Shown here in pieces: positions 17,954 through 19,350 of a DNA stretch of 64,000 bases (position 1 is the stretch's first letter; the number at the start of each line of letters is the position of its first letter). A program made the translations under genes and the position numbers. The notes beneath the pieces were generated by a model, which had not been told where the DNA came from, ran no database searches, and worked only from the letters and a program-made list of their open reading frames with translations. The stretch is from an uncultured Pelagibacteraceae bacterium. Lineage in GTDB: Bacteria > Pseudomonadota > Alphaproteobacteria > Pelagibacterales > Pelagibacteraceae. The stretch lies in assembly GCA_902618695.1 (NCBI GenBank), contig CACNCB010000005.1, forward strand, positions 1-64,000, in the 5' to 3' direction.

Positions 17954-18029
17954 GCCCTTGTAGCTCAGCTGGTAGAGCAATTGATTTGTAATCAATAGGT
18001 CCGCGGTTCGAGTCCGTGCGGGGGCACCA
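17954..18029 (+). tRNA. tRNA-Thr (anticodon TGT)
   Basis: A complete 76-nt cloverleaf with acceptor GCCCTTG/CGGGGGC, D-arm AGCTCAGCTGGTAGAGC, anticodon loop TTTGTAA (TGT), T-arm GGTTCGAGTCC and encoded CCA. It follows rlmB by 33 bp on the same strand. Confidence 0.97.
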
Positions 18030-18062
18030 CTACTCAATAAAATCAAAGTTTATAATTTTTTA

Positions 18063-18085
18063 AAATTTTAAGATTCTTAAAATTT
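18063..18085. terminator. AT-only inverted repeat, possible bidirectional terminator
   Basis: Perfect 10-bp arms AAATTTTAAG/CTTAAAATTT enclose the triplet ATT. The repeat lies between the end of tRNA-Thr (plus strand) and the end of the broken lipoprotein gene (minus strand), where convergent transcription should stop. The stem has few G:C pairs and no clear U-tract, so termination is only a guess. Nothing else is seen between the tRNA and the lipoprotein gene. Confidence 0.35.
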
Positions 18086-18145
18086 CTCTGCTTGGTGTGT
18101 ACATAGTGTGAATAGATTGTGTATCAATCAAGTAGTCGTTTGAAA

Positions 18146-18575
18146 TTAATCTACACAATCAAAAACCACTTTATAATCTTCTTTAGATTTATACTTTGCA
18201 GTTCTTTGAAATTTCAGACAGTGCTTTTCAGCTTCGGGTAGTGCATCAATTTCATCTCCATAGAGATACAAGACAACGAAATTTTTATTTCCACTAATTG
18301 ATGGTTTTTCACATTTATAAGTTAAAGTTTGAAGGTCATATGTTCCTTTAACAAGTTCACCAGCAATAGGATATTTTTTTTAATTGTGAGCAATGATTTT
18401 TAGCCTTAACAAAAATTAATTTCTTTGATGCAATGTTAGGGAACCATTGAATGGTTATAAGATCATTGTTTTGTTCTATAACTGTTAATCTTTTTCCAAA
18501 TCCATAATTCTCTCCATCGTATCTACAAGATACCAGCAGCAAACACAGAACCACGATCCCTAAAAGTTTTTTCAT
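18146..18575 (-). pseudogene. Small lipoprotein gene, reading frame broken at an A8 tract
   Basis: The first part codes for a lipoprotein signal peptide (MKKLLGIVVLCLLLVSC, lipobox LVSC) and runs to a stop after 72 aa. Downstream, another frame stays open and codon-like to a TAA, starting YPIAGELVKGTYDL and ending VVFDCVD. Dropping one base from the A8 run (T8 at 18374-18381 on the plus strand) fuses the two into a 142-aa protein. The fused protein contains two similar segments, AKNHCSQLKKY and AEKHCLKFQRTAKY, an internal duplication. The gene follows nadK by 4 bp. It could be a recent pseudogene, a sequencing error or a slippage-dependent gene. The function is unknown. Confidence 0.7.
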
Positions 18576-18579
18576 TTAT

Positions 18580-19350
18580 CTAACTAGTCTCTCTTCTTAT
18601 TTGCTCAATTTTAATCTTTTTTTGTAAACTTCTATTTTTATCATATAGAAGATTAAACTTAATTTTTTTGTTAGTTTTTACAGTTATTGATTTAGCATTT
18701 CTTACTTCTAAATTATCTGCAACAGCACTAATAGGTCTCTTAGTTGGGTTTAAATTGGTTATAACTATTTTAATTTTATCATTAACTATTTTGCCCTTCC
18801 ATCTTCTTGGCCTAAAGGCACTAATAGGTGAAATTGATAATTTTTTTGAATGAAGACTTAAGATAGGTCCATGAACAGAAAGATTATAAGCAGTACTTCC
18901 TGCAGGTGTTGAAACCAATACTCCATCTGAAACTAATTTTTTAATTATCTGTCTTGAACCTTGTTTAATAGATAGTGAAGCAGCCTGCCTACTTTGTCTT
19001 AGTACAGATACTTCATTGATTGCTATAGATCTCTTAGTTTGATTATTTTTATTTTTAACAGTCATTTCTAGTGGAGAAATTGAAACCAAATTTGCCTTTG
19101 ATAAGTTTTTTAAAATATCTTTTGGGGAAAATTTATTCATAAGAAAACCATAATTTCCAGAGTTAATCCCATAAAAATGTTTATTTGAATTTTTATTTTT
19201 TTTTAATGTTTGAAGCATAAAACCATCTCCACCAATAACAATGATGAGATTTTCTTTTTTATACTGATTAATTTTTATTTTTTTTATTAATATATTTTTT
19301 ATACTTGATGACTTCTTGTTTTGATCTGAAATTATTTGAAGTTTACTCAT
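18580..19350 (-). CDS. nadK: NAD kinase
   Basis: This enzyme phosphorylates NAD to NADP. The 256-aa protein carries the IGGDGFML motif (family GGDG, about residues 39-46) and INSGNYGFLMN. The second family signature is VSTPAGSTAYNLS, with GPI following. ISPISAFRPRRWKG is the expected C-terminal segment. It begins 4 bp after the 3' end of tRNA-Leu, so both are probably on one transcript. The lipoprotein gene follows. It is slightly shorter than enterobacterial NadK (about 290 aa). Confidence 0.9.
   Translation of the reverse strand: MSKLQIISDQNKKSSSIKNILIKKIKINQYKKENLIIVIGGDGFMLQTLKKNKNSNKHFYGINSGNYGFLMNKFSPKDILKNLSKANLVSISPLEMTVKNKNNQTKRSIAINEVSVLRQSRQAASLSIKQGSRQIIKKLVSDGVLVSTPAGSTAYNLSVHGPILSLHSKKLSISPISAFRPRRWKGKIVNDKIKIVITNLNPTKRPISAVADNLEVRNAKSITVKTNKKIKFNLLYDKNRSLQKKIKIEQIRRETS

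Follow-up and report, generated by a model that had tools for sequence, protein, structure and literature searches.

On the minus strand of the window, by which is meant the whole 64,000-nt stretch of DNA that was analysed, a small lipoprotein gene lies between a tRNA-Thr gene and a NAD kinase-like gene (Table 1); the names NAD kinase and, below, tuf and rlmB are those that we presume from the sequences. The window belongs to contig 5 of a draft genome (35 contigs, 1.23 Mb, 89% complete). The lipoprotein gene begins with an open reading frame of 72 aa (18357-18575, minus strand) that starts at the ATG at 18575, has the N-terminus MKKLLGIVVLCLLLVSC and the lipobox LLLVSC, and reaches its stop just past an A8 tract, while the frame entered after the tract is open as far as the TAA at 18148-18146. 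The original prediction, that the two frames make up one 142-aa lipoprotein divided at this tract, proved sound on both counts: the tract lies in the sequence where it had been placed, and the joined protein is matched end to end by uninterrupted SAR11 proteins.

Table 1. Features at the lipoprotein locus (positions in the window)
Feature	Position	Strand	Remarks
tRNA-Thr(TGT)	17954..18029	+	3' part to 18029 repeated at cassette ends in relatives
116-nt tail, stop codon to tRNA 3' end	18030..18145	-	Same length in five orthologous cassettes
Three arm-like direct repeats, TACACA, TTCACA, TACACA, 11 nt apart	18096..18123	-	Seen by eye; counterpart of SAR11 cassette leader/tail repeats
Frame-broken lipoprotein gene	18146..18575	-	Relatives: 142 codons; window: stop after 72 aa
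A8 tract (T8 on +), site of the frame break	18374..18381	-	Interrupted and one base shorter in five close orthologues
NAD kinase-like gene, which bounds the variable site on its other side	18580..19350	-	Ends 4 nt before the lipoprotein start

With its lipobox and a cysteine, C17, that is invariant by eye in six aligned rows, the protein has the marks of a bacterial lipoprotein, and the lipobox would place it at the cell surface or in the periplasm. Cysteines 62, 88, 119 and 140 (read-through numbering) are likewise invariant across six aligned rows, L016 being outside the alignment, and so are both pairs of the two H-C repeats that had been noticed in the fused protein. These repeats, each with a further cysteine, suggest two units that may be stabilised by disulphides. 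The 72-aa product retains, of those four cysteines, only C62, together with the lipid-bearing C17. No Pfam family was found for the 142-aa protein at E <= 1, and the structure predicted for an orthologue, from a four-row alignment, was uninformative (mean pLDDT 40) and was left unused. The idea that the signal-peptide DNA is a dispersed repeat was rejected for this genome: the first 60 bases of the gene have no second good match in it, the other three matches being 14-17 nt long.

Comparison of the 142-aa read-through with the genome contigs (the genome_contigs set) yielded five close orthologues (L014-L018), all uninterrupted, at 89-92% identity in Pelagibacteraceae single-cell or draft genomes, and a distant homologue (L003, in G274), also uninterrupted, at about 42-44%. 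The family of the five close matches is what marks the window as SAR11 (Pelagibacterales). Five of 297 genomes were matched in a family search (the genome itself, G274 at 42% and three weak matches) and eight of 399 in a genus search (the genome itself, three full-length matches at 89-91% and four weak ones), the three full-length genus matches being the same loci as three of L014-L018. L007, L008 and L009 occupy the same contig positions as L016, L015 and L017, respectively, and these duplicate loci were removed ahead of the count; matches in G111, G117, G118, G361, G420, G462 and G488 were dropped as unsafe (E 5e-4 to 0.01, 26-35% identity). None of the six relatives, five close and one distant, stops at the 72-aa position, so that a frame broken here stands against uninterrupted orthologues, as is expected of a recent frameshift pseudogene. 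No second genome of the species was found.

Age and cause of the frame break

At the site of the tract the five close orthologues encode F/Y-E-K-Y in a run interrupted by G, and none of them has the A8 tract; the window holds a pure A run that is one base longer, and differs from its relatives there by base substitutions as well as in length. The substitutions would have come first and the change of length second. Upstream of the tract the gene differs from the five orthologues by 19-22 synonymous and 4-7 nonsynonymous changes (Nei-Gojobori dN 0.027-0.047, dS 0.75-1.05), and downstream by 28-29 synonymous and 10 nonsynonymous changes (dN 0.049, dS 1.46-1.64, the latter near saturation). With L014 as the reference the proportions of the two kinds do not differ significantly between the parts (Fisher p 0.54). 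The downstream frame is thus still coding in character, as had been proposed, the orthologues being full-length and the differences mostly synonymous. To judge from these substitutions, purifying selection appears to have acted on both sides of the tract, with no sign of old decay. Since the differences are mostly synonymous on either side, the break must be late relative to the divergence of these genes, or not real, that is, an assembly error.

Three causes had been put forward for the split: a recent pseudogene, a sequencing or assembly error, and a gene expressed only through slippage. The first is the most likely. That the gene is functional and its break an error of sequencing or assembly is the less probable reading, though one to be taken seriously. 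Such an error would account for the similar purifying selection on both halves, with no significant nonsynonymous excess downstream; the source assembly is a draft in 35 pieces, and homopolymers are commonly miscalled by one base. Against error speak the substitutions by which the tract differs from its relatives, not in length alone, and the 50 other coding-strand A runs of 8-11 that the window has within other open ORFs of 100 aa or more, a count that is biased because broken genes fall outside it. A runs of 8 or more are ordinary in the window, and homopolymers alone do not break genes here.

The remaining possibility among the three, that the full protein is still made when RNA polymerase or ribosomes slip on the A8 tract, whether by chance or as a programmed event, found no support and is very improbable. 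In its favour are the known slipperiness of long A runs and a downstream frame without decay, but the tract is missing from all five close orthologues, which leaves no conserved slippery tract of the kind found in programmed frameshifting genes. In addition, the loss of an A that would be needed is the rarer direction of transcript error at homopolymers in both bacteria measured, E. coli and Buchnera; in the passages of PMC5574713 that treat them, transcript deletions seldom begin in homopolymers, and errors that restore the frame were not observed. It is harder still to believe that A-run length acts here as the switch of a surface lipoprotein, in the manner of a phase-variable contingency gene. 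The protein is of a suitable kind, and there is a homopolymer within its gene; no conserved hypermutable repeat exists at the site in any of the five close orthologues, however, and A runs of this length are commonplace in the window. By itself, then, the split gene is ordinary, one more recent pseudogene or assembly error.

Cassettes at the tRNA-Thr gene

In the five close orthologues the gene is the last of a cassette and is followed by the 116-nt tail and then by tRNA-Thr 3' sequence. An intact tRNA-Thr follows the tail in L016, L017 and L018; in L014 and L015 only the tRNA 3' half does, then come further genes and finally the intact tRNA-Thr (seen, for the L015 contig, in L054). The companions upstream vary: genes of 92 and 188 aa in L014, a 149-aa gene in L015 and L016, a 132-aa lipoprotein-like gene in L018, and the same gene in L017 with a 97-aa gene in between. 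The lipoprotein gene is 97.9-99.5% identical among L014, L016, L017 and L018, far more alike than tuf (82-89%) and rlmB (74-81%) on the same four contigs, and so it appears to travel. Around the lipoprotein cassette of L015:357-9429 (L054), pilin-like genes with near-identical N-termini (14 in 10.4 kb) lie between tRNA-Thr half repeats. At L017:4666-4986 two adjacent and otherwise different genes begin with near-identical signal-peptide DNA, which is a possible recombination site between cassette genes.

Such arrangements are widespread among the relatives. A tRNA-Thr search matched 146 of 150 of them, and at least 23 of the 64 same-genus genomes with a full-length tRNA-Thr among the matches listed have one or more 3'-half repeats on the contig of tRNA-Thr, no more than about 10 kb from that gene; the 23 leave out two genomes whose repeat lies about 70 kb off or on a different contig, one without a listed intact tRNA, and two with only a 5' part. 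At the loci from which cassettes were cut, where copies ending before position 74 were set aside, the repeats start at tRNA position 17-30 (once 44) and extend to the 3' end, and opposite-strand copies occur at no locus; the variable genes are bounded by these partial repeats, which is the structure of a tRNA-anchored additive island. In terms of the window's own tRNA gene, the repeated part would begin mostly at position 22-30, about 17975-17983. Copies of the 5' part alone occur in L089:8974-9018 and L090:9396-9437 (oriented; tRNA positions 1-45 and 1-42), about 5-6 kb from the intact gene on its other flank, and may point to exchange close to the anticodon loop.

From loci chosen for having repeats, and thus not at random, 49 cassettes were cut, 39 from the window's genus and 10 from a sister family, tRNA copies that end before position 74 (for example positions 26-59 in L015/L054) being left out. 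Without the integrase-bearing L065 there are 38 genus cassettes, a few of them near-duplicates. Their ORFs of at least 80 aa point almost uniformly toward the tRNA (79, with 4 pointing away); of the 79, simple text patterns class 10 as pilin-like and 13 as lipoprotein-like. The typical cassette has a leader of ~90 nt, genes in one direction and a tail of ~115 nt; in 28 of the 38 the leader measures 80-110 nt and the tail 95-145 nt. The median length, including the repeat, is 1.6 kb, and between repeats the cassettes measure 696-6064 nt, 36 of the 38 being shorter than 4 kb and two longer. In the sister family, L073:7797-9787 has four tRNA-Thr half repeats spaced at only about 400-515 nt; each unit holds one small ORF or none and lacks the leader and tail layout of the genus.

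Read by eye, short direct repeats number two in most leaders and two or three in most tails; their common spacing is about 11 nt, and their types include CGACACA, TACACA, GTCACA, GGTAACA and GTCCGCA. The repeats of a leader tend to match those of its own tail. The mean local score of leader against own tail is 12.3, versus 8.0 against the tails of others and 6.4 for shuffled leader letters, and the own-tail value was reached in none of 20000 permutations. This comparison covered 36 of the 39 genus rows, three near-duplicates having been removed and some related rows remaining; the 10 sister-family (f2) cassettes among the 49 were excluded as lacking the layout. The own tail was outscored by no foreign tail in 12 of the 36, and by 10 or more in 7 of the 36, so that mixing occurs and the match of the arms is weak for some cassettes. 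By analogy, the repeats of leader and tail would be like the arms of phage attachment sites.

The window itself appears to keep just the tRNA side of such a cassette, the far end being missing from the sequence. It contains no second tRNA repeat, only the intact tRNA-Thr matching at E <= 1e-3, so that the second boundary of an additive island is lacking in the window itself; nor was a cassette leader or tRNA repeat found on the NAD kinase-like side, as that gene ends right before the lipoprotein start. The tail is closest to that of an unrelated cassette, L072 (77.6% identity), and is 61-62% identical to the tails of the orthologues. Gene and tail therefore have different histories and, as far as such identities can tell, seem to have been recombined. 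In L064:625-4523 (oriented) the frame of the NAD kinase-like gene extends up to tRNA-Thr, and on the far side of this gene there is a tRNA-Thr half repeat.

A proposed split attachment site and its putative recombinase

Integrases are scarce at these arrays. The PF00589 profile was searched in 12 genomes, 8 of them array-bearing and all available as drafts: there was no match anywhere in G309, G511 and G333, one each in G392, G323 and G152 and two in G642, all off the array contig, and a match at the array only in G172. Seven of the 8 array genomes therefore have no integrase match at the array, though in drafts such absence is not proof. The window's own genome has two matches, on contigs 1 and 7, and none on contig 5. 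The exception in G172 is a 7.7-kb element with its own integrase (L065:6057-13874), which is bounded by the intact tRNA-Thr on one side and a half repeat of it on the other and has arms of a different type, GACTACA.

A candidate for the missing partner comes from L098, an 8.9-kb viral contig that is probably satellite-like, given its integrase, AAA and small-terminase domains. At L098:7220-8464 it carries an unbroken site made up of tail repeats, 56 nt of the tRNA 3' part and a 93-nt leader with GTCCGCA repeats, and the leader is followed by the first ATG of the integrase frame, at the position where the cassettes begin their first gene. The same repeat type occurs in cassettes (cassette 4 of L054 and cassette 2 of L061). 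The tRNA-Thr pattern matched one other viral contig, L097, which was rejected as an attachment site: its tRNA-Thr gene is complete and stands in the company of other tRNA genes. In the viral collection, no relatives of the integrase were found besides the query contig, and a variant tRNA pattern matched no contig; the two integrases, compared with 599 frames of 47 loci, matched only themselves, and none of the integrases found had the arm type seen in the window's tail.

These observations are best brought together by supposing that the small two-repeat lipoprotein gene, in relatives, closes an integrative cassette whose anchor is the 3' end of tRNA-Thr(TGT). Such cassettes would enter the tRNA gene by site-specific recombination, with the tRNA 3' half as the core and with arms in the leader and in the tail; the integrase, which most of the examined arrays lack, may be supplied in trans by phage satellites or prophages that use the same tRNA gene. 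In the window, base changes would have produced an uninterrupted A run, the length of which then shifted by one, so that the frame was lost. The far end of the cassette here would be gone and, with it and the frame, mobility and function; missing that end and abutting the NAD kinase-like gene, the cassette is probably fixed and decaying. Taken as a whole, the explanation that a tRNA-Thr(TGT) cassette gene has recently been frame-broken here, and that in the relatives such cassettes integrate site-specifically, is considered probable.

It must be set against the view that the arrays of tRNA halves grow and spread by homologous recombination alone, or are old prophage relics, with no integrase acting on the cassettes. 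SAR11 genomes do recombine strongly, the gene and the tail in the window have different closest relatives, and in seven of eight genomes there is no integrase match at the array. Homologous recombination would, however, have no need of arm repeats that match between the leader and the tail of one cassette, and it leaves aside the unbroken leader-core-tail layout of L098, with an integrase that starts just where the cassettes have their first gene. Integration of the cassettes by recombination alone, or their origin as relics, is accordingly held to be unlikely. A more far-reaching form of the preferred, site-specific explanation is offered tentatively, as a possibility that falls short of an even case: tRNA-Thr(TGT) may be a SAR11 platform for integrase-free cassettes that hold a complete but split phage-type site, the arm types being matched to the integrases of different satellites acting in trans, and the window's gene may have lost first its far end and then its frame.

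SAR11 are among the most abundant bacteria in the sea, and the setting outweighs the split gene in that it provides a testable model of how small accessory genes, such as those for lipoproteins and pilin-like proteins, enter and leave streamlined genomes. The layout of the cassettes also bears on which phage satellites could provide the recombinase. If the model is true, streamlined cells trade single surface-protein genes without an integron, and in the comparison with integrons it is to be noted that the repeats are tRNA halves and that three draft array genomes lack any PF00589 match.

Comparison with known systems

Serial tRNA cassettes are already known, and the SAR11 tRNA-Thr arrays are rated as little described. 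The literature search, in which little of the subscription literature was covered and which may thus have passed over a published account, met no publication naming them. In 2007 the hypervariable regions of SAR11 were described in PMC2217521, in the part bearing on this subject, as containing pilin genes, with one region flanked by tRNA genes and no attC. Serial insertion of cassettes at tRNA genes, leaving partial repeats, has been reported for the Actinomarinales (PMC7771536), and the same kind of additive island occurs at tRNA-Lys in the Methylophilaceae (PMC10872708). The SAR11 arrays are like these islands in that cassettes are added successively at a tRNA gene and leave partial tRNA repeats behind. 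Unlike the islands as described there, they have near-fixed leader and tail lengths in most cassettes, matching arms and mostly a single gene direction; arms are absent from the passages that describe the islands, and an unbroken site with an integrase was seen here on a satellite-like contig.

Tycheposons, elements of 4-200 kb with a tyrosine recombinase and tRNA-bounded cargo in streamlined marine bacteria (as described in PMC10872708), are tRNA-bounded like the SAR11 cassettes but differ in size and in gene content: nearly all of the SAR11 cassettes fall below the 4-kb bound between repeats, and seven of eight array genomes have no tyrosine recombinase at the array. The CIMEs, which are decayed ICEs or IMEs that keep attL and attR without an integrase and are stacked in tandem at the end of a gene (PMC5704250, in the portion concerned with them), are similar in that the cassettes of the relatives keep att sites and have no integrase, the window lacking one end. 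The SAR11 cassettes are nonetheless mostly 0.7-4 kb long, with one or few genes, and the comparison was made on integrases. The ssrA islands of Dehalococcoides are also in tandem downstream of an RNA gene with direct repeats of its 3' end, and sixteen of them, according to the relevant section of PMC3146451, have an integration module that includes a serine recombinase; the RNA gene is a different one in SAR11.

The frame break has its own parallel in AT-rich genomes of the Buchnera type, where genes are disabled by indels in runs of A or T, as set out in the passages on homopolymers in PMC5574713. The window's gene differs from those homopolymer pseudogenes in that it belongs to free-living SAR11 and is an accessory gene that spreads between genomes.
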